Source: Muricea muricata
Taxonomy: Eukaryota > Cnidaria > Anthozoa > Malacalcyonacea > Plexauridae
Length of the DNA stretch: 64,000 nt
NCBI GenBank assembly: GCA_963855995.1
Contig: OY979728.1
Span: forward strand, 6,745,330-6,809,329
Direction of reading: 5' to 3'
Part shown: piece after piece, positions 24,915-60,200 of the stretch
How the letters are laid out: each line of letters opens with the position of its first letter
Numbering within the stretch: position 1 is the first letter of the stretch
The notes under the pieces: generated by a model
What the model was told of the DNA's origin: nothing
The model's input: the letters and a program-made list of their open reading frames with translations, nothing else
Database searches by the model: none
Position numbers and translations under genes: made by a program

Positions 24915-24948
24915 AACACGTTCTAGAGCAAAGTGAAATATTCTATTT
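24915..24948 (+). repeat. Left terminal inverted repeat of the 9-kb transposon
   Basis: Thirty-four bases are identical to the reverse complement of 33892-33925. The similarity fades after ATTCTATTT. Preceded by the TCAA duplication. Confidence 0.85.
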
Positions 24949-25149
24949 AGTAAAATTCCTGCATTATTTTATCATTTTCTCGAATAATGGCAACACAATT
25001 GCAAAATTATTTTCTTTAAAGATAAAATGGAAATTTTAAATGGTTTTTCGCCACAAAAAAAACGTTGTTGCAAAAATGGAGTTTTTTCTGTTTAATAGGC
25101 GACGTCAATAACAACCATAAAATAACAATATTTTTATAATATGATATTC

Positions 25150-31288: not shown

Positions 31289-31477
31289 ATGCCATCAAAA
31301 AGAACTAGTACTCCGAAAAAGAATGTTGAGCGACACGACCGCGCAAAATGGTGGTTCGTACAGAGTGACGAAGGTATTTTTATTGAAAAGAGCACAGGTT
31401 GTGCAAAGAGCAATGACTAAGAACTCTCTGCCGTTAACGACATTAGCGCAAGTAAAACAAAAAGCGAATCATTAAAG
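31289..31477 (+). pseudogene. First exon of a plus-strand transposon gene, broken by an in-frame TAA
   Basis: An ATG at 31289 opens a 63-codon frame that ends at a strong splice donor (AAG|GTAAGA, after 31477). The encoded start is basic (MPSKRTSTPKKNVERHD) and then contains KWWFVQSDEGIFIEKSTG. Codon 44 (31418-31420) is TAA; the same frame stays open on both sides of it, up to the donor. This looks like one nonsense mutation in a once-coding exon. The product is not recognised. If real, the gene runs divergently from the minus-strand gene and towards the right subterminal array. Confidence 0.45.
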
Positions 31478-33490: not shown

Positions 33491-33891
33491 TGCCGTTGAA
33501 AACGCAATGTACTTTACGAAGCTAGGGGGAAAATATAGCACCGTTTTAGCAACTATTTTTTACGTGTTGCAAGAAATGAATGTAGCATGTAATATTGGTA
33601 ATGACAAAATTACACTTTCTGGACAAATATCACTGTATTTACAATAATTGACTTTGACATTTTTTCTCGTTCCTGATTCATTCTATATTTTGTAAAAACT
33701 GAGTTATTTGTCAATGGTTCAATTTGGCTTGTCATGTATATTTGTGGACAATTATTTCAAAATATTTACATTTCTTCCATGACATCTTATAGCGTTGCCA
33801 GAATGCAATAAAATTCTAATTATTGGCAAGTAATTAACAAAATTTTCTGCAAAAACTAGGGAAAATTGTACCATTTTGCCAGAAATTTGGA
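33491..33891. other. AT-rich right subterminal region, no gene seen
   Basis: Sequence between the minisatellite and the right terminal repeat. The inner part near 33780-33890 is only loosely similar to the inverted left end beyond the 34-bp terminal repeat. No gene or structured motif is supported. Confidence 0.5.
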
Positions 33892-33925
33892 AAATAGAAT
33901 ATTTCACTTTGCTCTAGAACGTGTT
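33892..33925 (-). repeat. Right terminal inverted repeat of the 9-kb transposon
   Basis: Reverse complement of 24915-24948. Followed by TCAA and then the LINE sequence that ends at its stop codon (33938-33940). Confidence 0.85.
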
Positions 33926-33937
33926 TCAAGTACGATG

Positions 33938-34262
33938 TTAGGATAGACTAATATCAGAAATTAAAGAATTAAAGGTATTTATCGATATTGAATCTCTAAC
34001 TTCCGATAGTAAATTATTCCAAAGTTTTGCACCACTATAACTAATACTTTTTCTCATATATTCAGTTTTAGGCTTTGTCAGATAAAACCCATAATCTGAA
34101 TTACGTAAATTGTAATCATGTTGAGGAGCATTTGGATTTCGAAATGATTCGATTAGAACAGCTGGTGCTTGCCCGTGAATTATTCTAAACATGAGTCTGG
34201 CTTTCATAACAAGTCTACGTTGCTTCAACGTTTTCCATTGAAGATCATTTAAGGCTGCTTTC
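33938..34262 (-). pseudogene. LINE reverse transcriptase C-terminus (5'-truncated fragment)
   Basis: The minus-strand frame runs from the LINE-satellite junction (34262) to a TAA stop at 33938-33940, about 107 codons. It contains LNDLQWKTLKQRRLVMKARL, MFRIIHGQAP, HDYNLRNSDYGFYL, KTEYMRKSISYSGAKLWNNL and a closing F..L segment. This is the typical C-terminal tail after the palm and thumb of non-LTR reverse transcriptases (W..L..RR, then YNLR, then SYSGAKLWN.L). The polymerase and endonuclease parts are missing because of 5' truncation at insertion, so it is not functional. The frame is intact within the fragment, suggesting a fairly young insertion. There is no ATG; the fragment starts inside the original ORF. 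Confidence 0.85.
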
Positions 34263-40200: not shown

Positions 40201-40639
40201 AACCATTCAAAATCGCGTTTTAAGCGTTCTAGAAGCGATTTGAGCGTAAAAACATGCTCAAATCACAAACTAAAAATTGCCGTCTTAAATCGATAAGGAC
40301 GACGTTTTAGAGCTTAAAATGGTGTTTTCAGTGTTAAAGTGAACGAGTTAAGCGCAATGATGTACTGCAATCACGGACCGAAAAGAGACCTTCTAAATGG
40401 AAATTGACAACTTAGCAAGTCGGGAATCATGTTTTCGGCTCTCAAACCATCGAGATGAGCGAAATAACATGTTGAAATGAGAAACCTATAACTTGCTTGT
40501 AAACTGAAAAGAAACGATCTTAGAACCATCAAAATCCCGTTTTAAGCGTTCTAGAAGCGATTTGAGCCTAAAAACATGCTCTAATTACAAACTAAAAACT
40601 TCCGTCTTAGATCGATCACGGCCACGTTTTAGAGCTTAA
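34263..40639 (+). repeat. Satellite array, block 2 (~20 monomers)
   Basis: Same 320-bp unit and orientation as block 1, resuming with GAGCTTAAAATGG after the LINE. From about 36100 a 7-monomer higher-order repeat is visible: the marker AACTTCCGTCTTAG occurs with its CTTCCGTC at 36088, 38343 and 40599, spacing 2255-2256 bp. Variants shared by successive units include TTTAGACCTTAAAATGG, CTTGATTGTAAACT and GAGTGTAAAAACATGCGC. The block ends at the TAA target duplication (40637-40639) of the CACTA-type element. Confidence 0.97.
34867..35108 (+). repeat. Shortened satellite monomer (about 242 bp)
   Basis: At 34911-34920 the sequence goes from TTTTAGAGCTT straight to CTAAATGGAAATTG, missing about 79 bp that normally lie between them. 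The donor positions share short similarity (AGAGCTT at the break, AGACCTT before the resumption), suggesting a microhomology deletion. Confidence 0.8.
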
Positions 40640-40653
40640 CACAGGATGAAATC
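40640..40653 (+). repeat. Left terminal inverted repeat of the CACTA-type element
   Basis: CACAGGATGAAATC matches the inverted right end with one difference (T/C at position 8). Preceded by the TAA duplication. Confidence 0.88.
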
Positions 40654-40699
40654 AGTATCTATCAACACCGTTAAATGTGGCGTAAAGTGATGTTATTGG

Positions 40700-41260
40700 T
40701 GGCTTTAATCACATTTAATCACTCTGATTAAATTTTGTAAATGTATCTAATGTCTCCTTTAATCATTCGAATTAAACCGTTTTCTGGAGGCTTTAAATAA
40801 ACAAATTTAAGCTTGATCATAGGCGATTAAAGACGAAGAATTAAAGGCGAAATAAAGTTTGGCTAAAAAAGCAAAGGTTTCTTAGTTAGTCTTTATATGC
40901 TACGAGAAAAGGATTCTAAATGCATCTTTACGCTCTTGACTCACATTTACAGTGACTGATTTCATTATTTATTTGTCCAATTTAATCACATTTAATGTTT
41001 TTAAAAGTATGAAAAAGGTATCTTTAATCAGGCCTTTACCTCATCTTTATGTTTGTCGTTTTCTATCTTTAATCACATTTAATGTAATAGGAAAAGAAGT
41101 GAAATATACTTTAGCGGGTGTTTAAATTACCTTGATTTTGCAAATTAGTTATCTTACTCACATGTTAATATGATCTGAAAAGGGTCAAAAAGTTGTCTTT
41201 AATCCTCTCTTTACCTCATCTTTATGATTATGCCTTTCAATCTTTAATCATATTTAATAT
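40700..41260 (+). repeat. Left subterminal TTTAATC motif cluster
   Basis: CTTTAATC or TTTAATCACATTTAATC-like motifs recur near 40703, 40713, 40755, 40981, 41013, 41067, 41198 and 41239. A similar cluster lies at the right end. Repeated subterminal motifs are where CACTA proteins bind in plants (TnpA for En/Spm); the same role here is inferred. Confidence 0.6.
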
Positions 41261-42097
41261 TAAAGAAAGAAGTGCCTTTACGTCTGTTGTAAATCCCATT
41301 GATTCTGTTAATAGTTACCAATAATGAAAGCTATATATAATCTTATCATGAATTCTATGCTCATAAAATTGCTTCAAATATTTCATCTAGAGAATCCAAT
41401 AAATTAGGTAAAGTACAATTAAAATAGCAGTACAACTCATTGCAACACACAAACCATAAAAACAAAGTTATTTCTCACGCTTCATTAATCAATATATTTT
41501 ACTATATAATTATATTGAATACACCATACATATAATTAATAACTAAATTACTCTAAATTACAAGTGCGACCATAAATTTTATAGATAATCTAGTAAAACA
41601 ACGCTTCGTATTTTGCCGGCAGAATTAAGTAAAATTCACGGGCTATAAAATTTCATGCCATGCAACACAACATAAATTCATTCCCTTTTTGCCAAATTAG
41701 TTTTTAAAACGAATTATATAGGGGCGAAACTAGACAATTGCCAAGATCCCGGCCCGCTTGTGGTATAAAATTAATAGTCTGTGACGTTGAGTGTTTATAT
41801 GATCCCGCTTCCATTCCCCTAAACAAGTACCCGTGCAGCACGAGTTTCTGACATCTCGGTTAAGAGGGATAGAAATTGACCACGTAAACACTTCATGTCG
41901 CCTGGCTGGGACTTTATCGCTATTTTACACGAAAACCATATTAAAGGGACTATAAGTGTAACAGACTCGACTCTATTGGGCCTAAATTTCTTTTGGATGT
42001 CTAAATATGTTTTAGATTGTTACGTTCACTTGCTTAATCTTTGTTCTGGCTAAAACATTTATGCCCGTGATGCGTTTATGTAAATATATATAATTAT
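41261..42097. other. AT-rich region between left subterminal repeats and accessory gene, no gene seen
   Basis: About 840 bp of AT-rich sequence downstream of the accessory gene stop codon. Probably its 3' UTR and terminal region. No open frame or repeat was recognised. Confidence 0.5.
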
Positions 42098-45000
42098 CTA
42101 AAAAGAGTCATTGAATGAAGAGTCAGCATTGTCACTGGAAGAAACTCCGGATCCGTCGACAGCTTGAACTGCATTATCTTCCTCAGGCTCAGCGACAGCT
42201 GCTGCCCAGTCAGGGCAATTTATCGGTTTTCGTCGTGTGGAAGGTTCTCCTGTCTCGCGAGGAACAACTCTTCTTTTAATTAACTCAGACAGTGAGTCAT
42301 GATGCAGCCTGTCAAGCTTCCTTTTTGCTTTTCGAAGCGATCGACTCTCCCAGGGCAGTTTTCGCACACTGTATTTAATAATTTTATGAGGTGGCTCATC
42401 GTCGGCTTCGCTTTCTTCCGAAGACATATACTCAGGTTTCAGAATCTCCAAAACCTTTGCCATTTTGCCAGCATCCCACGAGATTTTTTCCAGCTGCTTG
42501 AGCCTACGTGCCAGCTTCTATAACACAATATTTGTAAGGTTGTCGTAAGAAACGCAATAGCAATAGACATGCAAAAAATAATTATGGCACAAAGCTCGGG
42601 GTTTCAGCTTAACGGTATGCCTATACGTGTAATTTATAATATCTACAAAATGCCGGTCTGCACGTATGTTATGACATACAGTTGCCTATAAATGATATTT
42701 TTTATTGCTGAACATGCATCATGAGCTGAGAATGGAATATGAACATAAAGGCATGTCATGCGTCCTGTTATTGACCTGCATATTTCTGCAATGCTTTTGT
42801 CGCCGGGAAAAAAGCTGAAATTAATACGCCGCTAGCTATATAACGATAGCCACTCGCTAGCAGTGAAATGGTTTTTGGATTATGTACAGTATGTAAATGT
42901 ATATTTATACTTAATTCTTCCCCGGCCATACATCAGAATTAATGTTATGGAAACCCAGCGCTATGTACAGGAAGTTGAATCTGAGTGCATGCTTGATTAC
43001 AGGCAAATGCTGATATTTGTGTTGTGCATGCCTTAAAACCGAACACGATGAAAGTATTAGCAATTTAGTTGTTTTTCATTCAGTAAAAATAATGAAATAC
43101 AAACCTCGTCTTTTCTGTTCCGTCGTCTGCAGTTTTTTACATGCTCCCCTTGCGTGCCTTTCGTACTCCTGGCATGGGAAGCCCTTGAAGATCTAAAGTA
43201 CGTCTTGAACGCTTCTAAAAATTAACAAGAAAATGCTTTGTAAGTTAAGATCTACAGTATAAAGCATAAAGGCTTAGCATTGATCCTTTTAAGAACCGGA
43301 ATAGTTAAAATATTCAATTGCGGATTGGCAAAAATATTGCGGGATCAGCATTTCAAATAGCGCACACATTGGTCATTGCATTGTCCAGATCAGTTACAAT
43401 CAAACTATAACTTTTTTGTAAGAGTTTTCGTAACTGTCTTACTTGTCTATATATATATTCAATCTTATTTGATACTAAAATAACACAACCCCGACATCAT
43501 TCTGCATACATAGCATAACGACTTTTCGAAAATCAAAAGTAGTTAAAATATTACACATAAATTACCAGACGTGAATTTAAATCACAACATACACACATGC
43601 AAGTGTATAGTTTTACTTATTTTACATTCTTATATGTCATGAAATAAGCAATCTCATTGACACTCAAACACCGCCACACAATATATCTCACAAGGAAGGG
43701 AGCTACATAAATTCTACCAAGTTAAATTTAAGGATTTTTTCATGAATTGGCGTGCTCAATAACTCGATTGAGCTCGCCAACTCATGAAAAACGCTTCCGT
43801 AATATACAATTTACACAAAAAAAGTGAAAAATATTCTCCCGCTCATTGGCCGTGCTCAATCGTGTTTTTGAGCACGCGTTTCAACCAACGAAAAAGCTTG
43901 GTTTATAACATGTATATTATAATGTTATTTTAAATGAATGTTTTTTAATGTTATTTTATTTTAATAGACAAAATTTCGTTACAAAATTTTAAATTTTTAA
44001 CCATGTGCGCAGCCCACTATGGGATGTTTGCACAGTTCTTGTTCATGCCTGTCATCGCCATCGCCATGGGGTATCCGGATCCAATGTGTTGAATTTTTGG
44101 CAGTTCATTTGTGTGGGTAGCAAAAGAAAACAACTTACAGAGATTAGCTAATAAATATATGTATGCGCGCAGTTCTGTGTCTTATGTTCTTTCAGCTACA
44201 ATTATATTCATATTTGTAGAAATTATTCAACTGATGCTAAATGTTTGGCGCTATTTTCTGCATCATGCCACGAGGTTAAAAAACTCCCTTAACATCCCCG
44301 CACAATGGGGGATTTTGACATAGGCTGAAATAAATTTTAGCATCTTTCTAAAATACCTTTGATTAGAACGGACGACCATGGGCATTTCTCCGTTCCCCCA
44401 TATTCATGAGCCAGTTCTTCAGAAACTTTGCGGCACAACATGTTGTTATGCTGCGAGTCGATACTAAAACAAATAGAGCACCGATATATTAGATATATGT
44501 ACGCAAACTACAAACGTGTGCTTCTGTAGATCTATACAACACTTCAGAATTGTCTTGCTATATTTCAAATACCCTACCCTGTAAACAAAGCTTATTTTCC
44601 TTCCTGTTCAGAGAGTAGAAATATCCTTATGTATATCCTTAAATATTACCTTTCCTCAAACTTGAATGACAAATTACTATCATGTGCTTTCAACGTTTTC
44701 AATTTACGACGAACATCGTTCTGTAAAAATACCAAACATTGCAAATAGCATCTTGTGTCTATGTTATAGACCAAAGTGGGTTAAAGACTGAAATAAGTAA
44801 AATAAATAAGTATACTCTGATACACATATTTTAAAATCAGTTCCAGACTTAGCCTTAGGCTCGTTTTGGATGTCGTTCACTTCAAACAATTAACTAGGCA
44901 AGTCACCTCGTTCATATAATCAGCCTAAAATAAGAAGACACTTCTTTTTATGATAAAATAATTGATGTTAATAGCAAGATCTCGTTAACCGTTTCCTGGG

Positions 45001-45399
45001 GTAGTTTCAACTGGAATTACATCAGTCTGACTCATGATCCATGACGACATGTACCCATGTTGGTTCTGAATCATGTCTGTAGTTCCACCGCCATTCATGC
45101 GACATTTCAATATGAACACAGCTGCAGTATTGCGAAAATGTTACAGTATAAGATTTTAGAAATTAATGAAAACTTACCCTACATAACTTCGGAACACGAG
45201 TAGACCTGGCTGGTCCTGTTTGACGGACTCGGTTCCTTCCAGGAGGCAGATTCTCGATGTTGTCAACCTTCTTCTTGATTTCCTCTAAGGACGACTTTGT
45301 CTGGTCGACAGTATTTTTCATTTGTTCTCGTAAAAGTCTATTTTCGTTTACCACGTTTTGCAACAAAAGCACATATTGGTCTGACAAAGAAACGGCCAT
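42098..45399 (-). CDS. Five-exon transposon accessory protein (309 codons, coiled coil, basic and acidic segments)
   Basis: Minus-strand exons 45178-45399, 44650-44720, 44357-44463, 43105-43214 and 42098-42517 all have AG acceptors and GT donors, and every junction phase agrees. The ATG at 45399 starts a heptad-rich N-terminus (residues about 5-50, YVLLLQNVVNENRLLREQMK). Middle exons give a helical segment (NDVRRKLKTLKAHDSNLSFK), then CPWSSV and a basic patch ending in KNCRRRNRKDE (about 160-170). The last exon has YMSSEESE (about 200), KLPWES (about 223) and a basic stretch, then an acidic Ser/Asp tail. Proteins with this SSEES...LPW layout are, to my memory, common next to animal CACTA-type transposons and have no defined function. 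A DNA-binding or TnpA-like helper role is an inference. It diverges from the kinase gene. Confidence 0.75.
43741..43786. repeat. Short palindrome in accessory gene intron 3
   Basis: CATGAATTGGCGTGCTCAAT and its inverse copy ATTGAGCTCGCCAACTCATG (18 of 20 pairs) flank a 6-base loop. A second smaller inverted pair (CGTGCTCAA and TTGAGCACG) lies near 43850-43880. Possibly a degenerate foldback insertion. Confidence 0.55.
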
Positions 45400-45982
45400 G
45401 ACGATCTGATTTTACTGTGTCTTTTGAAACTAAACTAACTCAAACGTGAACCTTGAACGAATTGGACGGTTGAGCTGTCATGCAGATATACAAAATTAGG
45501 CGGGAATGAGCAAAATGCCTCTCATTGGACGCGAACAAGACAGCACCACAGGGATGCTGATTCACATGCTAAAAGCAAGAAACAGTCCAACACATATGGC
45601 CATAACAATTTCTCGGTGAAGCAACAATCTACGTTATCATTGACCAAACTAAAATTTCTTGTGAAGTTATTCATAACAAAATACACCATATTCGCGTCAA
45701 ATGTTACATTCAATTACCATGTATCAAGATCAATGAAACAGACGATTGTTTGCACATTATTAATAATTATTGAATAATTATTTGGTGATTGGAGGGGGGT
45801 TGATAATATAGCAATCAGTGAAGCAATATCCGGAAAAGCGCGGGCGCGCGAATTTTGGTTCAACTTATTGTTTACACTCTGACAATCGACATCATTCTGG
45901 TTCAGCGAGGGACGGAGCGAGCACGATTTAAAGCATCTTTTCTGACTATCTGGTGGTATGAGCTTACGTACAGTCGGTTGAA
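45400..45982. promoter_or_regulatory. Divergent intergenic region between accessory and kinase genes
   Basis: 583 bp separate the two start codons (45399 on minus, 45983 on plus). No other supported coding frame lies here. A two-way promoter is implied by the layout. A GC-rich patch (GCGCGGGCGCGCG near 45840) precedes the kinase gene in otherwise AT-rich DNA and may be part of it. Confidence 0.45.
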
Positions 45983-48900
45983 ATGGCGCATTTTAACTCG
46001 ACATTCCACACAGCGAGTGGCGCACTTGCTACAGTTGGGATACGTCACGATCTGGGAGAAATCTCAGTACCACCAGTGACTCAGAAAGAGCAGACATCTG
46101 CGAAGCAACGTCGCTTTTCTCGGCCCAACACAATCGAGGAAATTCGACGCAAAAGACGCAAAAGGAATATGAAGGAACGGGAGAAATACAAAACAATGTC
46201 AAGAAAAGAAAAAAAATGTAAACAAGAACGAAAAATACATGAAGCATTTACCCAACAAGAAGATAAGATAAAAAAGCTTGTCGTACGAGTACACAAAGAA
46301 AGAAAACGTGCTGTTGATTTTTGGCGTCTGTGGGACAAGGAAAAGATGCTGCGTAGTGCAAGTACCATGTGAGTAATGTTACAAATACGTTAAAATGTCT
46401 AACTGAAAATTATTATACCATTTACTTCACAATTATATGCAATGACCTATTGCAGTTTAAATCTGCCTCTCACCCAGAAAACTTCAGTTGACATTCTAGG
46501 AAGGGTTGTTATGAAAAATGTAATTATCAGGGGAAGGGGTACAATCAAAACCCTTTGAGAGGCTGGAAAGAATAGGAACATTTCATAGGGGGTAGAAAGA
46601 ATGGGGAAATTCCTATTTGTCAACACCAATCCCTTTTTAATACCAAATAAACCCACAAATTATGTCTTCAATACATGAAATCATTTCTCATTTTGCTGGT
46701 AGCGGCTACCATTGTACCCAACCCAATTTTTTTATAAGTAACAGACAAGGAATTATTCAGAAACTGAAGCATTTGAATATTTGGTGGTTCACCAGCTTTT
46801 AAAAGTGAAAAAGGGTGCTGTTGAACAATACCAGGTCACAGTGGTGTAGCCAGCCTGACAATTTAGTCTTGCCATGCAAATTTCAAAGTATTATCATTAT
46901 TCATTTCTTTAGATATTGATTGTTTTCATAATCATTGAATATAAAAATATTTGCACAGCAGGACTAAATCGTCAGGCTGGTTACGCTACTGCCAGGTCAG
47001 TAATTGATATTGCTGCTATCACTGGTATTGATTACCAAGTATCCTGCATTGCAATTACTAAAAATTCAAAAGGGGGTGGAGATTACATCATAGAATTTTG
47101 TCCATGTACACTCATTTTTAAAAAAGCCCTGTAGGAAATTTCCTAGGGGGAGAAGATTATACTGAGGATTAGTTTATTGTGCAACTTGCCTTTGGGGGTG
47201 TACACACAAAGGATTACTCCACAAGGGAGATGGGATTAAAATTGCAATAGCCCAATGTGCATTTAGTCCTGTTTAGAGCATGAAGAAATTTGCCAAATCC
47301 CTAGAGAAATTCCTGTCGTAACATTTCTTCATGTCAGCAAAAATATGTTTCAGACCATGGCATGATTGCTTGTCCTAATGATTTATTACAAGAGATAGCT
47401 ATTCAAAGGTATCAGTGCTAACCATTGGATTAATACAAACTGGTGTCATAAAGCTCATCAGTGTCTGATTCTAGTAATCAGCTCAGCACAATTTTAAAAA
47501 CAAAAAATTGTTAATTAGTAATAATTGATAAATCTTTAGAATGTCTTATATAATTTATGTTTAGCATGTAACAAATTGTGACAAAATGTCTCATCAATAC
47601 AAACCTGTGTGCCCATGTGCTGTCAGAAGACTGCAAATCCTATTTCAGAGACCTAAATTTTAATCATTTCCTTGTGAATGCCCATATTAAAGACCTGGTC
47701 CTACTTGAGTTGTCCCTTTGGCACTTAAAAATTCAATAAAATGTATGTTCCAGCTGCTTGGTCATAAGCATGAAAAATGTCTTCAGAGATGTTGTTTAGA
47801 TCATTTTATATAGTAATAGTGTTTACATCATACCAGTCAAGTGGTTAGCTAAGTGGCCACCAGGTGAATCAGAGGTAAAAATGCTTTGTTTGAATAATTT
47901 TAGAAGCGTACATCAGATTGAAAAGGAAAATATTGAAGATATTAATGAAGACATTGATGATTTGATTGGTGAAGGTAAATTTGGAACATGTATGAAAAAA
48001 GTGTATAGAGGCCATGTTGTTGCTGTGAAGTACTATAAAGAGAATTCCTTAGCATCAGATGTGGAGAAAGAAGCAATGATGATAAATACATTTGATCATC
48101 CAGGTGAATACTTAACATTGTCTCAGTCTCAATTCCAAAAAGAAGATGTATACTATGTTCATATTAACAACCAATCATCTTTCTTTTTATACATGCTAAT
48201 GCCCTGGTGCTGCCTTGTGTAATTTGTTGCACTAGTTTCTAGCTTGTTCGTGCAAACAATAGTTCAAGGCCATCGGAAGCATATTGATATTGGGGGGCTG
48301 GCAACAGTAGAAACCAGAATTATTATAAATCTGAATTAGGTTCACACTTTTCTAGTCTGGGTGTTTTGCTCTGCCTTAGAAAGATTGAAATTATTGGGAG
48401 GGGGGCTCAAGCTCAAGCCTCCCCCCCCCCTCCCCCCAGCCCCCCACTTTTGATGGACTATTGGGACTGTTAGGCCAGGCAACTTTGCTTAGCAAGAGAA
48501 ATTAATACTTATAAACATAAGTACTGTAAAGTAAAGTTAATAACAGTACAGTGATGGATCTAGAGCGTTAATTGGGGGGGGGGGTGCATATTCATATTAT
48601 TCAGGTTCTGACCGATTAATTTCTTTTGAAATAAGGTTGATTTCAAAAGAAATTGGTCGGGCAGAACCTGAATATATGAATATGCACCCTCTCAAATAAT
48701 GCTCAAGATCCACCTCTGTAACAGTATAAGTACTGTACAGTACATTATTGAAATGCTAAATTTTAATGCTTCTTGATGGAGCCAGTGACTACACTCCATC
48801 CTATTTTTTCCTTTTGATTTGAAGCATGCTAAACAATGAACAATCAGTTAAGTACACACAGGGCCAGATATAGCATTAGGTCAAGAAATTAAACACTGAG

Positions 48901-49607
48901 AAGTAAAATCAAAATCATGTGGCATTAAGTAAAATAATCTGGTGTTTGAAAGGGTCATATAGTAAAGTTGAGTATCTCAGGGTACTGTACATTCTGTACA
49001 TGTACAGTGGGTTAAAATCTGTTTTACCAAAAGATTTTGTGTTTTAGGTTTACCATTTGTTTTTGGTATGAATGTGCAAAATAAGCCCTACATCCTTGTT
49101 ACTGAATTTTATGGAATTGATGGCCAATGTGTGACGTTAGCAAATGCTCTCAAGGGTAGGTTGACACTGAATGTATTACAATGGGCAAGCATATTGGGAA
49201 AAATATCTGAAGCTCTTTCTCATATCCACAGTAAAGGGTATATCCATGGTGATATAAAAAGTGACAATATTGTGATCAGAAGTGCATGTGGTTCATACAT
49301 GCCCATAATAATAGATTTTGGCAAAGCAAAAAAGTCTGGTGAGGCAAAAAAGTATAAACTGACTGAGAAAGAAAAAGAGAAATACAGTAGAAAATACAAA
49401 CACATTGCACCAGAAGTTGTGTGGGGAAGGCATCCCAAATCTGCAGCCAGTGATATATATTCCTTCGGCCAGGTTATTTCACTTGTATGTTTTTATCACA
49501 AATCACTTGAACTGCAGAGCATAGCGAAACAATGCATATATGGCACACCGGAAAAGCGCCCAAGTATAGTTGAAATAATTTCACAACTGCTCAAAATTAC
49601 ATCATAG
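45983..49607 (+). CDS. Coiled-coil protein kinase carried by the transposon (three exons, 381 codons)
   Basis: Exons 45983-46368, 47904-48103 and 49048-49607 have GT/AG borders and matching phases (AT|A, then G|GT). The N-terminal exon is strongly basic and helical (residues about 45-125, RRKRRKRNMKEREKYKTMSR) and could be a coiled coil with a nuclear signal. The kinase domain covers about 148-381. It has the glycine loop GEGKFG (151-156), the ATP-binding Lys in VAVK (171), a helix-C Glu (about 185), catalytic loop YIHGDIKSDN with Asp264, DFG (285-287), APE (316-318), DIYSFG (331) and KRPS (about 366). All core catalytic residues are present, but HRD is HGD. This looks most like the tyrosine-kinase-like/RLK branch, a Ser/Thr or dual-specificity guess. 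The substrate is unknown. Two hAT MITEs lie in its introns. Confidence 0.85.
46839..46991. mobile_element. hAT-type MITE (153 bp) in kinase intron 1
   Basis: The ends CAGTGGTGTAGCCAGCCTGA and, inverted, CAGTAGCGTAACCAGCCTGA fold back on each other. The flanks are the 8-bp duplication CCAGGTCA (46831-46838 and 46992-46999). CAG ends with an 8-bp duplication are typical of non-autonomous hAT elements. Confidence 0.88.
48549..48718. mobile_element. hAT-type MITE (170 bp) in kinase intron 2
   Basis: Nearly full-length foldback: CAGTGATGGATCTAGAGC at the left and, inverted, CAGAGGTGGATCTTGAGC at the right, with inner arms sharing GTGCATATTCATAT and AATTTCTTTTGAAAT. It is flanked by the 8-bp duplication TAACAGTA (48541-48548 and 48719-48726). 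Unrelated in sequence to the other hAT MITE. Confidence 0.88.
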
Positions 49608-50085
49608 TCATTACCGATGCCAATAAAGCAAACTTGCACTGTACAGTTACTGAATGTAACTAGAATACTATCCCTGAAAACACATCAAAAGTTGTATGTT
49701 GTTTTATTGTATCTAAGGTTGTTGTACAATTCAATGCTATAATTCTTTTTTATCATCAATATTTATTTCCTGAAACTGTCCTTGAGATTTTACAACTTGA
49801 ACAAAACTTGCGTGCACATGCATTTGATGCTATTTTTAAGGCAACCTATTTTGTAGTTTTTAGCTGTGCATATTTTACAGTGCATTTCTAAAGGTCATAA
49901 TAATTAATGGAAAATATGTGCAAGGAATATGTAAACGTAGTACATGTGGTTTTGATTTCTGTTTTGCATTTTGGGTCCGGTGGGGTTGGTAATAGGCAAT
50001 GGGGACAATATACGGTACAGAATACAAAATACAAAATTAATAACCGTATTACAGGACTGGTGTACAATGTGTGTGCATACAGCTA

Positions 50086-50302
50086 AGGTTGACTTCGGCA
50101 ATAGTCAAATGTGCAATATGAGCATTCAAAGAATGGTGGGGAAAATGTAGTTTTAAAGAAGATCAACACATCAGCAACTTTGCAGGATTACAACTATAAT
50201 ATTTTAGCATTATGTAAATATAAATTGAATGTAAAACTGTGATTATTTCCATCATTCTTTTTTTGCTCATATTGTACATTTGACTATTGTCAATGTCAAC
50301 CT
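50086..50302. mobile_element. TA-flanked MITE (217 bp) between kinase and transposase genes
   Basis: Inverted arms of about 50 bp share AGGTTGAC, CAATAGTCAAATGT and CAATATGAGCA. They lie at 50086-50135 and about 50250-50302 and are bounded by TA on both sides (50084-50085, 50303-50304), as in Tc1/mariner-derived MITEs. Short open frames across it are incidental. Confidence 0.75.
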
Positions 50303-50583
50303 TAATTCAATTAGCTGTATTTCTGATCATATTTGTGCTAGCATTTTTCAGCTCTTTCCCCAACTGTCAAAAGAGATTTCGAGATGTTTTAAAAGCATCT
50401 TTATAAAAACAACGTGCAGAAGTATAGCAACGCAGCGATGCAGAAATATCTATTTCAATAACCGATATTCAAAATATTAGCTCATTTCCGTATCACTGCA
50501 TCATCAAATTTCTATACAGTTTTGAAACGACGATTCTTGATACATTCCAAAACCTCTCGTAGTTTTCAATTTTTTTAATAGTA

Positions 50584-50732
50584 AAATAGATTTCGAAACA
50601 AACGTAAGCGATAAAAGTTTTATTGAAGAACGTTTCGAAGCCATCATGGCCTCATTATCAAGTTCAAATAACAAATATAGATAATTTTTACAATAAGACT
50701 TTTATCGCTTACGTTTGTTTCGAAATCTATTT
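50584..50732. repeat. Perfect 35-bp inverted repeat near the convergent gene ends
   Basis: The arm at 50584-50618 (AAATAGATTTCGAAACAAAC...) is an exact inverse copy of 50698-50732, around a 79-base loop. It lies about 90 bp past the transposase stop codon, so both the transposase and any kinase readthrough transcript would form a long hairpin. It may be a MITE, though no target duplication was found, or a terminator or boundary element. Confidence 0.8.
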
Positions 50733-50821
50733 CAAAAAGTTTGTTGATAAAGATTAGTAAAATAGTTTGTAAATATTATAAAGTGATTTACTGTAAATTA
50801 GTCTATAAAATACTACACGTA

Positions 50822-53800
50822 CTACGACACAAAGCGTCTTGTCAATGGACTAATTATGTACCTGGTTTCATTATTGTGTGATGTTACTGCAAACCCACAT
50901 TTTGCAGAAATTCTTTGAATTGGCAGGTATCGAGATGGACCTCCAGGATACACAGCCACCTTGCTTGCAACAACTAGTGGACTTAGACCATAGAACGCGG
51001 TGTCTGTTGTGGCTTTGAACCAAGTTACACAGGCGAACACATGCTGACTGAACTGTTGATCTGACTTAATCGAGTGGGAAAAGTAGAAGTCGACTAACCC
51101 AAAGACTTCCTGCATGAGATCTTCTGAAATTCCCCCATCCGATCTAGCCCACGCTGCTAGTATGCCTGTAGACCTCTTGCTTCTGTATTCCAACGTGGAG
51201 CCAAACTGTTGGTTAAAAATTTTTATACTACCAAATTTGTGTACTGTTGTGCTAAGATTTTCCAGTCGAATATCTCTGTCACTAAACATGACATTGTACA
51301 CATTCTTTAGGATTTGCAGATCATCACGATCAAGGCAACTTTCTTTGTAGTGTGATGGGAGTAAGACAGCAGACAAGTTTTCCCAATTTAAAGTGTTTAA
51401 AGGGAAGCTTGCAGGCATTTGATAAAATTCTATTAGTTCAGATAAGTTGTTGACATCCATGAGCATGCTACCATCTTCAGACATGTTACTCATGACACAG
51501 CTAGTTAGCGATGATAGAGTATCACCAAAATACGGTTGCAACTCTTGATTCAGAGGCATGTTATCCATACACCGCAATGTCGTAACCTTTCGCATGATCT
51601 GCAGTTCAATAGATCTGTTGTTTGTCTGTATACTGCCTAAGATGCCGTTATAACGTTCAAAACTAAAACACCAAAATGTATGTATTGGTCCATAGTCAAG
51701 AATTATTTCTTTAAGATGACAATGAAGATGCATGTTGGGAGTGCATGCTGCTTTTCCATACAGTTGTTCAAATTTCGTACAAAATTTGAGAAGGCAGTTG
51801 TCTGCCTTTAATATATCCGTACTTGAAAGCACAGGTTTGCACAGGTACTTGCAAGCTAATACAAATGTTTGCCAGCACTGAAGTTGTTGGTCATTCAATA
51901 CTCCTTTAAGGGCAAACAAGGAGTAAATCAGCGTCCAGTTCTTCCATTGTTCTGCAGTGTATGATCCGTAGTTAGAAGATATTTGTTTGGGAAGTCGTCC
52001 AATGTCAGCAGGGACTTCCATGTTTTCAATCCGAGTTTCAATTGTTTTCAACTGTGTTGCATTAAGATGACCTTCGGAAACCCAAATTTTAAATTGATAC
52101 TTAGCCGTACCAAGGAATAAGTTGTGCATTGGGTCAATGGAGCAGAATCGTATTATGTCAAAATATTCAAGATCCAACAATGCGCTGTAGTAATTGATCC
52201 CATACTGCTTAGATAGCTTTTCCTGCTCCGACCGAGTCTTGCATTTTAAAATTCTTTTGGCCTTCTGTCTGTGGCCTGCATTTGTTCGTTTTAACCACGA
52301 ATCACGATCAAACCCCGAGTAGTCTTGCTTTTCTCCAAATGAACCTGGAAATCGTTTAAGGCAACGAGAGCATCCCAACTGAGCACTATGTCCTTTAAAA
52401 CCACAAAGCTTTCGAGATGCGGGGATGTCTGATGATGTGCACAACAATGCTGCTCTGAAGACCAATGGTATTGTGCTTAGACTTGATTGAAGTCTAACCC
52501 CTTTCCATAATGCTTTTAGTTCATCAACGGCTGGTTTAAGGAACTCGTTCAAGTGTTTAGGTTCATGACCCATTGCAGGAATTATTCCAACAACAATAAC
52601 ATTTTCCCACTTGAATCTTTCTGAACGGGGCAAATTTAACAAAACAAGGTACAACACACCAACAGAATAATCTTTTCGATGCTTCATTGGTTGGAAAAAA
52701 TCAAAGTTGAGCATCATCCCATAATTCCGTGGAGCATTTAGAAAGTCTTCATCGTTGTACTTAAGGAAATCTTTCCATAGCTGGCCACTGTATATGTCTG
52801 TGAGCAAATCACTTTCCACCGTTTGAGAGCGCCATTTCTCACATTTTTCAGGTACCCCTTTCCTTTGAACAAGTTTTTCTATTGAGTTTATGATGCTATT
52901 GTAGCAATAGTAAAAAATAGGATAGTACTTGACAGTGTTGTTGTTTAATGTCACCTTTTTCACCAACTGTGCATCACACGCATGGACTTTCCCTCGCTTA
53001 TAAAATTTGTTGGTGCATCTTTTAACAATGTGACGGCCGTTTACCTCTTTAACACATTCGCTGTATTCGTAGCATTTAGTGCACGTTGGACAAACTACAT
53101 ACTTTGCAAAACTGTCCCGATTCACTGCAAGGAATTGTCGTATCATATATAAGGATGTGGGAATTGTTACAATTAACTCTGCCAACAACTCAGTTGGAGC
53201 ATGGGCGTTGATTGCTTTCAGGAATTGAACTAGAAATTGTAATAACCAGGACAATCCATTGTCACTTAAGTGACACACGCTTTGCCAAATCAGTAAGAAG
53301 TACAGGAGCCACTGGATAATAGAATTGACAATGTGGAGTTTTCTCTGCTTTGCTACAGGTTCTGGAAGTGGAGGGGTCGAAAAAACATCTTGCTCAAACA
53401 GATCTTCTGGAATATCATTCCAGACTTCATCCTCTGAGTCAGGGGGGTCATCACTGGTAGTGGTATCAGATTCTCTGCTGCTTACATCAATATTGTCTTG
53501 AGTTTGCTCACATTCCTCCTATGATTATAGAAACAATATATTGTACTGTATGTCAATTTTAGTTACAAAATTTGTGAAACTATTCATCTCTTAGAAATTT
53601 TTCAATATGCTACTTCTGTTTTGGAAACCAAATTTGCCCATTACAATGGTATACAATCATCTGTATTGACAACCCTGCCAGCACTAATAATTTGGTTAAT
53701 TTTTACAATAAAACACAAATCTTTTGTTGTAAAAACTATCTTGTGTCTATCTGTGAATTACGAATATGAGCAATACATGTATTGTGTACACAGTGCAAAG

Positions 53801-56601
53801 TGAAAAAATGGCCTTCATGCTTCATATACCATGTTAGTAATCCACAGATAGGGTACTTGCTCTGGGAAGGGGAGGACCAAAAGGTTTGAAATTCATTGTA
53901 ATACATGCATGGGCATTGCAAATATATATGTGATATAGCACATGCGCTATATCATATTGATAATTCACAGCTACAAATTACCAATAGACTAAGCATACAT
54001 CAGAGTAGAAGGTGTTGTGCTCAAATGGGGAAACAGTATGCGGTAATAGCGAAATTATCTTGTTTTGGAGTTTTTATAATGCATACAAAAGTCATGTTGT
54101 TACAGTAATAAATTCTGAAAATATAACAGTTTAAGCTTTAAGAAAATACAATCACAATTATACAATGGCATAGTTAGGGTTATACATATGAGTGAATGAC
54201 TGGGTAAATAGTACTGCTCTGAAGCAAAAATATGGCAAAGGTATACTGCTTGTATATTTTCACCACAGTTCATAAAATATAGCTAATTAAACACCCAGCA
54301 AAGTGATTAGCCTAATTCATGTAAAGCTTTATAGACTGACACATGTGTAGTCAATATGAATTTCTAATGTTAAGGATTTGTTGGGGAATTTTTTTGGTTG
54401 TAGAACCCATGATTTTGTAAATTGTATAGTTCACAGTCTAGAAAAATATCAGTGAGACTAGTTTCAATATCAGTGTCAAATGCATAATTATGTAAGATGT
54501 TTGATCTGTTTAGAAAATGTGGCACGTGCAATTAAAAAATTTCATGTGAAACACTGCATCATCTCAGGCATCATTGTGAACAAGGTGTATTAGCATAAAA
54601 ATGTTAACCAAACAATTTTTGAAATACATGGCATGTAACTACTGATACTACTGTAAATTTCATCTGCACCTGAATGTCAGTTGACATGTGGTGAAGACAT
54701 AGAATACTTGACTCCATGGCTATCAGGTATGCGATAATTAATTGTGCAATATTCTTAAAATAATTTTAAAAAACACCAGAAACAGTATGAAATTATTCTT
54801 TGTTTTCTTAAAGATCATATAACCTACAGCATTAAGCAAGGCTACTTAAACATTGAATCACATGATTAAGATAGATCAATTTGCCTGTTTCAAACTTAAC
54901 TGCCATCTTAGCTAATCATGCTAGGTATTTTTGCTTAATATTTTTGTGTGGTGTCCACTGGCAATTTGAACCTGCACAAGTGGGAGAACCTTCAGCAAAA
55001 ATGACCAGTACGAAACTGTGAATTGTTTTACAAATAAAAACCAGACAACCTAAAAAGTTTTGACCCCCCCCCTTCAAATTCCTGAGTTCTAAATTACCCC
55101 CTACCTGTCAAACAGCCATAATTCAATTCATTTTTTGTTTTAATTTAAAAAATTTTGATTTGTAAGTAAATCTCTCTGTACATCTAACCACATTATATGG
55201 GGGAAGTATGGATCTTTTCTGGAATAATCAGCCCATATTAATCCTATGTTGTCATCATTACCTTCTGGCATTTCACAACTTTCCTAGTTTATATTTCTAT
55301 TTTTAAAAACAGTCAGGTAGTCTATCTACAAAGTGCAATTGAATGCAATTTTGGTTAGCTTTTAAGATGAAATTCACAAGATCACATTTGCTATTATATT
55401 TTCCTAAAATTTATTAGTTGCTTACTTTCAACATTCGCAATTAATTCTTTTGCTGGACAACTCGAGTATTAATACATAAATCTAATTTGCTCACTAGAGT
55501 GCAATTTTGGCATATCTCTCACTCAAAATTATGCAATTCGGATGAAATTCTCCTTTTGCCTGATTTGTTTCAAACTAGGTACAGAAGTCACACAGTCAGT
55601 GTCACACTGGATGCAGTGCACTTAATCTGAAAAACTACAAGTGATTCTTTTTGAAAATGTGTCAAAATTTAATGAGCTGCCAGAATGGGTGTATTTTGAC
55701 AAATTTCTCAAGAATTACAATTAATTTAACATTAATGACATGACATTCTCATGTGATTAGTTATATATCATATCGTAAAAAAGTACTGACATTCACTTGG
55801 CTAATCATATTTACAGCATTTTTTGCAGCAATTTTCTCAGGTACATAGTGCAGGTCTGTGCATATGACCCCATGTCCTAGAAGATTTGTTTTGTGTTGTA
55901 TAATGCACAAGTCATTTGAACCCACCAACCCCCAACCTCACGGTATACATGGGGCATTCAGTTTGTATATGCCTGAAATTTAAATTTCTCACACAAACAA
56001 AGTGAATTCCCTGCCCTCCCCCCCCCCCCCCCCCGAGGTAGGGTGGTGGTCAAGGGGTTCGAATGACTTGTCCATATAATCCTTCTGCTAACCATCACAT
56101 CTCAGTAGAACTTGATAAACACAGTAATTTATGTGTATTATTAAAGGCAACTACTGCAGGCTATATAAAACAAATTGACTTGAATAGTCGTGGATTTTTA
56201 CAGTTGTGGAATTTACCTGATATGTGTTCTCTGAAGCACAGCATTCGTCACTGACAGGGAAAACTTCCTCCACTGGGTTTTCACGAGCTGAATATAATAT
56301 ATAATATTAAATAATTAGCCCATGAATACAGCATTTTAAAACTATTTTGTTAAAGAATATTACCATAGTAATGTTACAATAGTAAAAGTCATAACATTCA
56401 GTCACCTTCGGTAACGTTGATCAATGTAGATTGTCTAGATTCGTCGCTACTAGAATCACTATCTGATAACACGACACGTCGCCGGACAAGTTGTCTTGTT
56501 GTTCGGGATGGTAAAGCCAAATGTCGCCTGTATGTCGTTTCTGATACCAGTTCGTTGCAGTGAGGGCAAAAAACGTAACCGCTATTCTCTGAACAATCCA
56601 T
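50822..56601 (-). CDS. Tnp2-family (CACTA/EnSpm, CMC) transposase, three exons, 987 codons
   Basis: Minus-strand exons 56406-56601, 56217-56287 and 50822-53518 join in phase (G|CT, then CAG|GAG), with introns of 118 and about 2,698 bp. Exon 1 from ATG at 56601 has a zinc-finger-like FCPHCNELVSETTYRRHL (Cys12, Cys15, His27). Exon 2 and the start of exon 3 are acidic. Then come a hydrophobic helical stretch (LLYFLLIWQSVCHLSDNGLS), a Cys cluster (about 232-270, CPTCTKC...C...C) and the catalytic region. Candidate DDE residues are Asp362 in LNFDFFQP, Asp453 in CTSSDIPASRK and Glu710 in FSFERYNG. The conserved IDPMHNLFLG lies at about 550. No internal stop or frameshift was seen, so the enzyme could be active. 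It would bind the CACAG ends and cut and paste the element in the nucleus. Confidence 0.92.
55067..55076 (+). repeat. Short poly-C tract in transposase intron
   Basis: A run of about ten C within the large transposase intron 53519-56216. The rest of that intron is AT-rich with no recognised repeat apart from another, longer C run near 56016-56034. Confidence 0.5.
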
Positions 56602-56774
56602 TTCCTAAGTTCTTTGATTCACGAAAAAAGATAAAACCACGAAAACAAATCTTCGTATTTCACACCCAGCCTTTAAAATAATACAGGCAAAACAGGAAGC
56701 GACGACCGAAATTATATTTACTTAATCTATCCACGATTACCCCTCCATATCCATCTAAACGATTCCCCAAATAT
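56602..56774 (-). promoter_or_regulatory. Transposase upstream region
   Basis: Sequence between the transposase ATG and the right subterminal motif cluster. As in other CACTA elements the promoter must lie here or within the subterminal repeats, so binding of the element's own proteins there could autoregulate it. No specific core motif is assigned. Confidence 0.35.
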
Positions 56775-57180
56775 TGAAATGGCATATAATAATCTTTAAT
56801 GCGCATACTACAAATTTAATTAAAGAATAAGAAAGTTTGCCATACCTTTACTTATCTTTAATTTATAACAAGGTTTAAATAAAGTCAATCGGAACTTTAA
56901 TCGCCTTTAATCTTTCATAAAAAGTGATTTAAAGTTTCCTATTCTTTTAACAACATATAAACTCAAGAAAATAGACGAAGTAAAGATATGTTCTCTTTAA
57001 TCACCTTTAAAACATGTATGTAAAATGAGAGATAAAGTTTCGTACGGCTTTACAAATATTTAAATTTCCCTGGAAAGATGAATAAAGATATTTCATGATT
57101 AAAGACACCTTTCAAACGTGGGTAAATGTAGATAAAGTACGGATCCCCCTTTAATAGCTTTAAACGGCGCATATCACATT
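56775..57180. repeat. Right subterminal TTTAATC motif cluster
   Basis: Motifs related to the left cluster (CTTTAATGC, CTTTAATCGCCTTTAATC, TCTTTAATCACCTTTAA, GATTAAAGACACCTTT, CCTTTAATAGCTTTAAA) are found on both strands between the transposase start and the right terminus. Likely protein-binding sites for transposition and probably part of the transposase promoter region. Confidence 0.55.
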
Positions 57181-57232
57181 TATAGGTAACTTTCATACAT
57201 TTACACAATGCGTAAATGTGAGAAAAAGTGTG

Positions 57233-57246
57233 GATTTCGTCCTGTG
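57233..57246 (-). repeat. Right terminal inverted repeat of the CACTA-type element
   Basis: GATTTCGTCCTGTG on the plus strand, the inverse of the left end with one mismatch. Followed by TAA and uninterrupted satellite. Confidence 0.88.
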
Positions 57247-60200
57247 TAAAATGGTGTTTTCAGTGCTAAAGTGAACGAGTTAAGCGCAATGATGTACTGC
57301 AATCACGGACCGAAAAGAGACTTTCTAAATAGAAATTGCAGAACTTAGCAAGTCGGGAATCATGTTTTCGGCGCTCAAGCCATCGACATGAGCGAGATAA
57401 CATGTTGAAATGAGAAACCTATAACTTGATTGTAAACTGAAAAGAAACGATCTTTGAACCATCAAAATCGCGTTTTAAGCGTTCTAGAAGCGATTTGAGT
57501 GTAAAAACATGCGCTAATCACGAACTAAAAACTGCCGTCTTAGATCGATCACGGCCACGTTTTAGAGCTTAAAATGGTGTTTGCAGTGCTGAAGTGAACG
57601 AGTTAAGCGCAATGATGTACTGCAATCACGGACCTAAAAGAGACTTTCTAAATGGAAATTGCAGAACTTAGCAAGTCGGGAATCATGTTTTCGGCTCTCA
57701 AACCATCGAGACGAGCGAAATAACATGTTGAAATGAGAAACCTATAACTTGCTTGAACACTGAAAAGAAACGATTTTAGAACCATCAAAATCCTGTTTTA
57801 AGCGTTCTAGAAGCGATTTGAGCCTAACATGCTCTAATCACAAACTAAAAACTGCCGTCTTAGATCGATCACGGCGACGTTTTAGACCTTAAAATGGTGT
57901 TTTCAGTGCCAAAGTGAACGAGTTAAGCGCAATGATGTACTGCAATCACGGACCTAAAAGAGACCTTCTAAATGGAAATTGACAACTTAGCAAGTCGGGA
58001 ATCATGTTTTCGGCTCTCAAACCATTGAGATGAGCGAAATAACATGTTGAAATGAGAACTATAACTTGCTTGTAAACTGAAAAGAAACGATCTTAGAACA
58101 ATGAAAATCCCGTTTTAAGCGTTCTAGAAGCGATTTGAGCGTAAAAACATGCTCAAATCACCAACTAAAAATTGCCGTCTTAAATCGATAAGGACGACGT
58201 TTTAGAGCTTAAAATGGTGTTTTCAGTGCTAAAGTGAACGAGTTGAGCGCAATGACGTACTGCAATCGCGGACCTAAAAGAGACCTTCTAAATGGAAATT
58301 GCACAACTTAGAAAGTCGGGAATCATGTTTTCGGCGCTAAAACCATCGAGATGAGCGAAATAACATGTTGAAATGAGAAACCTATAACTTGCTTGTAAAC
58401 TGAAAAGAAACGATCTTAGAACCATTCAAAATCGCGTTTTAAGCGTTCTAGAAGCGATTTGAGCGTAAAAACATGCTCAAATCACAAACTAAAAATTGCC
58501 GTCTTAAATCGATAAGGACGACGTTTTAGAGCTTAAAATGGTGTTTTCAGTGCTAAAGTGAACGAGTTAAGCGCAATGATGTACTGCAATCACGGACCGA
58601 AAAGAGACCTTCTAAATGGAAATTTACAACTTAGCAAGTCGGGAATCATGTTTTCGGCTCTCAAACCATCGAGATGAGCGAAATAACATGTTGAAATGAG
58701 AAACCTATAACTTGCTTGTAAACTGAAAAGAAACGATCTTAGAACCATCAAAATCCCGTTTTAAGCGTTCTAGAAGCGATTTGAGCGTAAAAACATGCTC
58801 AAATCACAAACTAAAAATTGCCGTCTTAAATCGATAAGGACGACGTTTTAGAGCTCAAAATGGTGTTTTCAGTGCTAAAGTGAACGAGTTGAGCGCAATG
58901 ATGTACTGCAATCACGGACCTAAAAGAGATCTTCTAAATGGAAATTGCAGAACTTAGCAAGTCGGGAATCATGTTTTCGGCGCTCAAACCATCGAAACGA
59001 GCGAAATATCATGTTGAAATGAGAAACCTATAACTTGCTTGAACACTGAAAAGAAACGATCTTAGAACCATCAAAATCCCGTTTTAAGCGTTCTAGAAGC
59101 GATTTGAGCCTAACATGCTCTAATCACAAACTAAAAACTGCCGTCTTAGATCGATCACGGCGACGTTTTAGAGCTTAAAATGGTGTTTTCAGTGCCAAAG
59201 TGAACGAGTTAAGCGCAATGATGTACTGCAATCACGGACCTAAAAGAGACCTTCTAAATGGAAATTGCACAACTTAGAAAGTCGGGAATCATGTTTTCGG
59301 CGCTAAAACCATCGAGATGAGCGAAATAACAAGTTGAAATGAGAAACCTATAACTTGCTTGAAAACTGAAAAGAAACGATCTTAGAACCATCAAAATCAC
59401 GTTTTAAGCGTTCTAGAAGCGATTTGAGCGAAAAACATGCTCTAATCACAAACTAAAAACTGCCGTCTTAGATCGATCACGGCGACCTTTTAGAGCTTAA
59501 AATGATGTTTTCAGTGCTAAAGTGAACGAGTTAAGCGCAATGATTTACTTCAATCACGGACCTAAAAGAGGCCTTCTAAATGGAAATTGCACAACTTAGC
59601 AAGTCGGGAATCATGTTTTCGGCGCTCAAACCATCGAGATGAGCGAAATAACATGTTGAAATGAGAAACCTATAACTTGCTTGAACACTGAAAAGAAACG
59701 ATCTTAGAAGCATCAAAATCCCGTTTTAAGCGTTCTAGAAGCGATTTGAGCCTAACATGCTCTAATCACAAACTAAAAACTGCCGTCTTAGATCGATCAC
59801 GGCGACGTTTTAGAGCTTAAAATGGTGTTTTCAGTGCCAAAGTGAACGAGTTAAGCGCAATGATGTACTGCAATCACGGACCTAAAAGAGACCTTCTAAA
59901 TGGAAATTGACAACTTAGCAAGTCGGGAATCATGTTTTCGGCTCTCAAACCATTGAGTTGAGCGAAATAACATGTTGAAATGAGAAACTATAACTTGCTT
60001 GTAAACTGAAAAGAAACGATCTTAGAACAATGAAAATCCCGTTTTAAGCGTTCTAGAAGCGATTTGAGCGTAAAAACATGCTCAAATCACTAACTAAAAA
60101 TTGCCGTCTTAAATCGATAAGGACGACGTTTTAGAGCTTAAAATGGTGTTTTCAGTGCTAAAGTGAACGAGTTGAGCGCAATGACGTACTGCAATCGCGG

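Follow-up and report, generated by a model that had tools for sequence, protein, structure and literature searches.

We describe a predicted protein kinase gene that lies inside a large DNA transposon of the octocoral Muricea muricata. The transposon is a Tnp2 (EnSpm/CACTA-like) element of 16,607 bp, at positions 40640..57246 of a 64,000-nucleotide stretch of contig OY979728.1 (assembly GCA_963855995.1; G000:C13:6745330-6809329), which we call the window and whose numbering we use throughout. The kinase gene is positioned within the element, has been co-inherited with the transposase over a long period, retains conserved exons around introns that can no longer be aligned, and has relatives beside other transposase-type genes. 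We conclude that it is probably an integral, selected gene of its lineage of large Tnp2 elements, and that its family is shared with other large repeated elements of the genome. All genomic evidence comes from a single 453-Mb assembly (74 contigs) of one species. An octocoral host agrees with contig C74 (19,292 bp), probably the mitochondrial genome judging from size and gene content: it has the best COX1 match and, in addition, a MutS_V match, and a mitochondrial MutS is not known outside octocorals. A 400-base piece of this COX1 makes best sense, by eye, with AGA/AGG translated as Arg and ATA as Ile.

Kinase and transposase in one element

The element interrupts a satellite on contig C13 whose unit of approximately 320 bp makes up much of the window. 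It terminates in 14-bp inverted repeats (CACAGGAYGAAATC) and is flanked on both sides by a TAA target-site duplication. Joining the flanks with one TAA (60 bp from the left and 57 bp from the right) gives a 117-bp sequence that is 100% identical to three satellite units in the window and matches most other units at 87–98%. Because the joined flanks recreate intact satellite units, we regard both the insertion and the 3-bp duplication as firmly established. The duplication, with its empty site in the satellite, has the 2–3 bp length typical of EnSpm/CACTA elements. Short subterminal repeats, a further mark of this group, are present as TTTAATC clusters: 14 of the 16 copies of this motif in the element fall within 700 bp of one or the other terminus, on both strands, although the motif was chosen from the same sequence after the counts had been seen. 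The termini keep the CAC of the CACTA/CACTG consensus, but the bases that follow differ from CACTA. The assembly contains 22 exact copies of the terminal motif and none of a reversed control. The transposase frame matches Transposase_21 (PF02992), the EnSpm/CACTA transposase family, with 61.3 bits against a cut-off of 28.6 (E 9.5e-17), and also contains a DUF4218 match that is below its own cut-off (E 0.0025).

The kinase gene has three exons, predicted from sequence, which have GT..AG borders and join in phase into 381 amino acids without stops. Alternative acceptor and donor choices also keep the frame open, and the borders chosen are those conserved in diverged copies. Exon 1 encodes a basic N-terminal region (28% Lys plus Arg). 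A profile scan assigns the protein to the kinase superfamily (Pfam Pkinase, E 3.9e-25), and the glycine loop, VAVK lysine, catalytic Asp, DFG, APE and DIYSFG motifs are all present. The HRD position reads HGD within the catalytic loop HGDIKSDN, which we take to be a non-RD form, using motif names as we know them. H66, D68, K70, N73 and D89-F90-G91 are invariant in 10 aligned exon-3 proteins. A comparison with the PDB matched 972 chains at E ≤0.001, of which the best are Lck-type tyrosine kinases (E 4.7e-13), so solved structures give no close placement. An earlier note, made from the letters of this DNA, had claimed an intact three-exon kinase with matching phases and these motifs, placed between transposase and accessory exons inside termini with a TAA duplication, and the present analysis supports it on each count. 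The note also described the basic N-terminal domain as a coiled coil; of this, the basic composition is borne out.

A search of the assembly with kinase exon 3 returned 78 matches, 15 at 96–100% identity, 10 at 54–58% and the rest at 43% or less. At all 10 loci of the middle band (20 kb each), which form subfamilies K58, K56 and K54, exon 3 is accompanied by Tnp2 in a convergent layout. Exons 1–3 with a MAHF or MAHS start are found at nine of them, the remaining locus (K58a) having exon 3 only, and the gene order is common to all except K58b, where the exon-1/accessory part is inverted. Compared piece by piece with the window, the diverged loci are 42–72% identical in Tnp2 (59–66% in the longest pieces), 53–57% in exon 3 and 33–53% in exon 1. 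The homologues are therefore multi-copy and accompanied by Tnp2, among both the near-identical and the diverged copies, rather than single-copy host genes, the outcome that would have told against the earlier note.

Coding and non-coding parts differ in conservation. Between K56c and K54a, exons 1, 2 and 3 are 72, 80 and 78% identical, whereas introns 1 and 2 and the interval between kinase and transposase reach 44–49%, versus 44–47% for shuffled sequence (five shuffles each). Exon-3 differences between these two loci fall 35/14/75 on codon positions 1, 2 and 3. Nei–Gojobori dN/dS for the same pair is 0.11 in the kinase domain (dS 1.14), 0.29 in exon 1 (dS 0.90) and 0.08 in the transposase core, where dS is near saturation (2.3); six exon-1 pairs span 0.21–0.46, and the kinase domains of the window and K54a give 0.19 (dS 1.97). 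The similarity of the kinase-domain and transposase values, and the higher value of exon 1, indicate that, between lineages, constraint on the kinase domain is of much the same strength as on the transposase, and weaker on exon 1. The kinase holds the same position in diverged elements and is under purifying selection, as expected of a core or accessory gene, and the selection on the protein that the earlier note had suspected is seen wherever dS is unsaturated.

Related kinases and their partners

Kinases at 33–43% identity occur in other contexts. One (L033) has the same layout as the window, with a Tnp2 that is 34–54% identical by piece. In L031 and L032, Tnp2 lies upstream on the same strand (Tnp2B); the open reading frames between Tnp2 and kinase at L032:4121-6341 resemble, by eye, a nested Harbinger-type transposon. 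Three further kinases (C1:89837162, C1:57812757 and C1:29058872) each have a Tnp2 14–19 kb away and head to head (Tnp2C), a linkage read from coordinates, with two of the three kinases fetched. Kinases at C1:21951920 and C1:42496935 have a repeated zinc-finger gene 3–6 kb away. L034 and L035 adjoin a large open reading frame that we term T2, in the order T2 then kinase, and have a small basic exon before the kinase.

T2 (L035:6959-9205) is a repeated frame of 749 amino acids with FHGDTPARQYECGQQKGGNYYCAICG. It has no Pfam match over the cut-off, only a weak SAP-like stretch (E 0.16), and its comparison with the Tnp2 profile gave a probability of 0.1, the two profiles being built on as few as 2 and 4 sequences; T2 element ends were looked for and not found. 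Because neither Pfam nor the Tnp2 profile matches T2, its candidacy as a transposase derives from copy number and linkage, which suggest that it is perhaps an undescribed transposase. There are 37 T2 rows in the assembly; of the 28 positions retained, 22 have an element-type kinase no more than 20 kb away, and the L035 block recurs at 98–99% identity in two places on C1.

Of 67 element-type kinase matches across the assembly, 41 have Tnp2 (29) or T2 (12) at a distance of no more than 20 kb. When positions were drawn at random on these contigs 1000 times, the mean was 1.5 and the highest count 7, and none of 44 host-like kinases is within 20 kb of either gene. Four further matches are inside two array-like elements (below). 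The 67/44 division was made by hand from the strength and kind of match, at about E 1e-9, with two weaker matches (C1:83286832 and C1:53607886, neither near a transposase) placed in the element group. Additional pieces of a single kinase gene were removed manually, as were repeated Tnp2 pieces (leaving 76 positions from 55+57 rows) and small T2 pieces (leaving the 28 of 37 rows), and copies of one family are non-independent events in these counts. The count of 41 draws on PF02992 and T2 matches beside a Tnp2 protein search; that search alone placed Tnp2 within 20 kb of 11/15, 10/10, 1/12, 7/31 and 0/10 kinase rows in falling identity bands.

In a tree of 15 element and 5 host kinases, which is unrooted and samples one genome and a small host set, the two sets separate with 97/98 support. 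Kinases linked to T2 and to Tnp2C group together (98/100), and a single clade of Tnp2-linked kinases is rejected (approximately unbiased (AU) test, p 1.3e-7; the test was picked after the first tree had been seen). That first tree had an overlong L036 branch and placed two Tnp2B kinases beside host rows (81/94), the host rows themselves forming one group (99/99). The rebuilt tree uses a shorter L036, a longer stretch of L031 and a stricter column filter, and leaves out host row L049; L041, a near-copy of L040, was omitted. On a plain reading of the tree, the kinase would have switched from one partner to another at least once. L034 and L035 resemble each other in their basic N-terminal exons (53%, E 4e-10), and comparison of these exons with exon 1 of the window reported no match, so homology of the basic exon across element types is conjectural. 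A viral scan with the kinase alignment found 15 stretches that fit the pattern, none of which was confirmed. A prokaryote scan with exon 3 gave four confirmed matches at 25–45%, which we took for ordinary bacterial kinases and set aside.

Layout and copies of the element

On the minus strand, ACC1–3 form a candidate three-exon accessory gene, and the plus-strand kinase lies between it and Tnp2 (Table 1). ACC1 is 50–54% identical in K58b, K58c and K56a–d, and ACC3 has a weak Csm1_N match below the cut-off (E 0.0018).

Table 1. Features of the kinase-bearing element, in window coordinates
Feature	Position	Strand	Basis or remark
Target-site duplication TAA, left	40637..40639		joined flanks with one TAA restore a satellite unit
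Left terminal inverted repeat CACAGGATGAAATC	40640..40653	+	end comparison, assembly-wide motif search
Left subterminal region	40640..41340		TTTAATC cluster, 8 forward and 2 reverse copies over 700 bp
ACC1, candidate accessory exon with open frame of 139 aa	42101..42517	-	no Pfam match over cut-off
Putative accessory exon ACC2	43107..43221	-	open frame, diverged-locus comparison; borders approximate
Putative accessory first exon ACC3, start MAVSLSDQ	45179..45399	-	46–64% identical in 9/10 diverged loci; donor approximate
Kinase exon 1, Lys/Arg-rich N-terminal region	45983..46368	+	open frame, kept in diverged copies
MITE-like inverted repeat, intron 1	46839..46991		repeat search of assembly
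Kinase exon 2, glycine loop and VAVK lysine	47904..48103	+	acceptor 47907 also possible
Inverted repeat, intron 2	48598..48674		sequence inspection
Kinase exon 3, HGDIKSDN catalytic loop, DFG, APE, DIYSFG	49048..49607	+	stop 49605-49607
Tnp2 transposase core exon, 898-aa open frame	50822..53518	-	PF02992 match
Putative small internal transposase exon	56217..56287	-	splice sites by eye, open frame
Putative first transposase exon MDCSENSGYVFCPHCN...	56406..56601	-	matched in 6/10 diverged loci
Right subterminal region	56547..57246		TTTAATC, 3 forward and 1 reverse
Right terminal inverted repeat CACAGGACGAAATC	57233..57246	-	end comparison, assembly-wide motif search
Target-site duplication TAA, right	57247..57249		joined flanks

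Opposite terminal motifs 16.3–16.7 kb apart bracket near-identical kinase copies on C2 (two), C10 and C13. Over 3,558 bp, the copy on C10 matches the window at 99.94% identity, so movement has been recent. Ends of the CACAG kind, which the earlier note had proposed looking for around homologues, occur in the window family and in K56, where CACAGGGCGAAATC is the sequence at the left ends and also at the right end of K56c, again keeping CAC with next bases that are not CACTA. The K56b right end reads CACAAGGCGAAATC (start CACAAGGC...), and this copy has no target-site duplication. Ends of the K58 and K54 subfamilies were looked for and not found, so the proposal holds for part of the family. The absence of stops, too, extends to only some copies: 7 of the 15 near-identical exon-3 copies are free of them, and the other 8 carry one TAG each, all in two places on C1. 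At these places (C1:49692739-49759781 and C1:50072571-50116675), which are approximately 313 kb apart and in opposite orientation, opposite window-type ends enclose 5 and 3 kinase copies at a spacing of approximately 11.5 kb, each copy with its one exon-3 TAG; each of the two stretches resembles an element in which an internal unit has been amplified.

The intron-1 repeat, identified as a miniature inverted-repeat transposable element (MITE) in the earlier note, does behave as one in being matched at many other places. From 1896 first-look candidates, 40 were scored, and the listed matches comprise 24 other places at 84–88% and 16 family places at 99–100%; its presence at 99–100% in the latter indicates that entry preceded the spread of the family. 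At C1:45191851-45199907, 8 kb with both window-type ends contain exon-1 and intron-1-repeat matches and no exon-3 or Tnp2 matches, and are likely to be a deletion derivative. A search with kinase exon 1 gave 31 rows, 27 of them at known element or kinase loci. The other four, at C13:3478119-3478501 and C1:42916268-42917672, are 34–77% identical by piece, have no exon-3 or Tnp2 matches listed, and may be element fragments or something else. Contig C1 (124 of 453 Mb) holds 54/78 exon-3, 39/55 Tnp2 and 33/37 T2 rows, exceeding its share of bases. The satellite in the window is interrupted a second time at 24788-34259; a minus-strand frame at the right end of this interruption (33938-34324) resembles, by eye, the terminal part of a retroelement, and the interruption also holds a short tandem repeat at approximately 32840-33650.

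Possible roles, rival explanations and known systems

Several observations weigh against an integral, selected kinase. Linkage is incomplete: 22 of the 67 element-type matches, including the two zinc-finger cases, lie outside the arrays and have neither Tnp2 nor T2 within 20 kb, and no kinase was detected within that distance of 39 of the 76 Tnp2 and 6 of the 28 T2 positions, so the kinase gene is not obligatory. ACC1 was not found in the 20-kb loci of K58a or K54a–c, its absence from K54 being the part that counts here. Synonymous divergence is saturated (infinite dS) in 8 of 10 kinase-domain pairs. Within families, the N/S ratio of the kinase is as high as 0.35–0.58 (four families), with 0.22–0.62 for the transposase (three families), the window-family counts covering exons 2–3 of fetched copies other than L002 (the window itself) and L010; these ratios would be as expected for copies decaying after insertion. 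Finally, the HRD arginine is replaced (HGD, HCD or HND), and individual copies have lost catalytic residues (HCN and a stop in K58b, DSG in L008, HNN in L042).

These last substitutions would also suit a pseudokinase or scaffold kept for binding and not for catalysis, to which the G, C or N in place of the arginine and the few copies without the catalytic Asp or DFG lend some weight. We consider this improbable, because the window copy and the majority of the others retain the catalytic Asp, the Asn, DFG and a VAVK-type lysine. The commonness of kinase genes invites the thought of a host gene that just happens to lie near transposons, but this can be dismissed with near certainty: the gene sits inside inverted ends with an empty site, it is multi-copy along with the element, and the host-like kinases provide a control in which none is near a transposase. 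Captured cargo, one of the options that the earlier note had offered, would be a host kinase gene or fragment carried passively in a Pack-type element. Large elements can take up host sequence, and kinase domains are abundant among host genes. However, the kinase is co-inherited and conserved across diverged subfamilies, host-like kinase matches are only 26–37% identical (E 4e-5 or worse), element kinases separate from the five sampled host kinases, and nearly all exon-1 rows are at element loci. Neither a close host donor nor restriction to one or a few element families was found, with two exon-1 places left unplaced. Since the kinase stays with the transposase through deep divergence and occurs in several element contexts, passive cargo is very unlikely, and the gene looks less like a host gene caught by chance than like equipment that mobile DNA has retained for a long time.

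The note's other option, a kinase that regulates transposition or the host's response, is the one we prefer, and we picture the integral kinase as acting in the nucleus. The protein would be catalytically active, its basic N terminus would tether it to DNA, chromatin or an element protein complex, and the tethered kinase would phosphorylate nuclear proteins so that the element moves or stays expressed. Tentatively, we favour a host protein as the target, such as a silencing, repair or cell-cycle factor, and rank it above the transposase and the accessory DNA-binding protein of the element itself because one kinase family accompanies unrelated large open reading frames. Phosphorylation of the element's Tnp2 or ACC candidate, which would time or assemble the transposition complex, fits the joint presence of kinase and Tnp2 over four subfamilies, with ACC exons in most, and the need of CACTA elements for both a transposase and a binder of subterminal repeats described in passages of PMC2613891. 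It seems to us possible but less likely, given that the kinase family is also found beside the unrelated T2 and that Tnp2-linked kinases are not one clade; T2 linkage and AU rejection together indicate that the kinase is not tied to one transposase. A selfish role in inheritance, with the kinase as part of a poison–antidote pair of the SPOK kind, has the precedent that the SPOK kinase domain is needed for resistance, although passages of the same source place that domain nearer the eukaryotic-like kinases than the protein kinases (PMC6660238). No nuclease or toxin match, including a SPOK-type nuclease, was found in the four frames scanned (kinase, ACC1, ACC3 and Tnp2 core, thus without ACC2 and the small Tnp2 exons), and we give this role very little credence.

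The fuller proposal of an octocoral transposon kinase module is possible but more speculative than a host target as such. Kept and exchanged by elements with unrelated transposases, the module would phosphorylate host nuclear proteins, either as counter-defence against silencing or in favour of repair or cell-cycle states that permit movement. If transposons encode kinases, phosphorylation control of transposition and of host defence becomes testable from the element side, and transposon genes may account for some of the orphan kinase expansions seen in corals. Recurrence with unrelated frames would, if the proposal is true, mark the kinase as a shared tool of large DNA transposons, akin to viral counter-defence genes.

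Among known accessory transposon genes, VANC of Arabidopsis VANDAL elements is thought to counter host silencing; like the window kinase it is an accessory gene, but it encodes a DNA-binding protein and not a kinase. SPOK meiotic drivers of Podospora are selfish genes that combine an N-terminal coiled coil with a C-terminal kinase domain, as passages of PMC6660238 describe. They differ in having a nuclease domain and in being fungal spore killers, and the likeness is one of described architecture. KolobokP, as presented in part of PMC9587614, is a eukaryotic DNA transposon that keeps an extra enzyme, a His-Me endonuclease, alongside a DDD/E transposase; its transposase superfamily and enzyme are different, and a nuclease acts on DNA whereas a kinase would act on proteins. 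Enlarged En/Spm families of the red alga Chondrus crispus are likewise oversized, at 16–20 kb with 4–5 open reading frames, some of them extra; the word kinase is absent from the main text of the review that treats them (PMC6431247). Searches of open-licence paper listings, with Repbase and subscription papers outside their range, turned up no account of a CACTA element that itself encodes a conserved protein kinase, though such an entry may exist elsewhere. The window element resembles the EnSpm/CACTA elements themselves (Spm/En and soybean Tgmt*), which in passages of PMC2613891 are likewise large (20.5 kb in Tgmt*) and share Tnp2, short inverted ends starting with CAC, a target-site duplication of 3 bp, repeats in the subterminal regions and a putative second gene. 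It departs from them in its CACAG rather than CACTA ends and in its spliced, conserved protein kinase gene; it is an element of the Tnp2/EnSpm type with CACAG ends, and that type gains in the kinase a new accessory gene.

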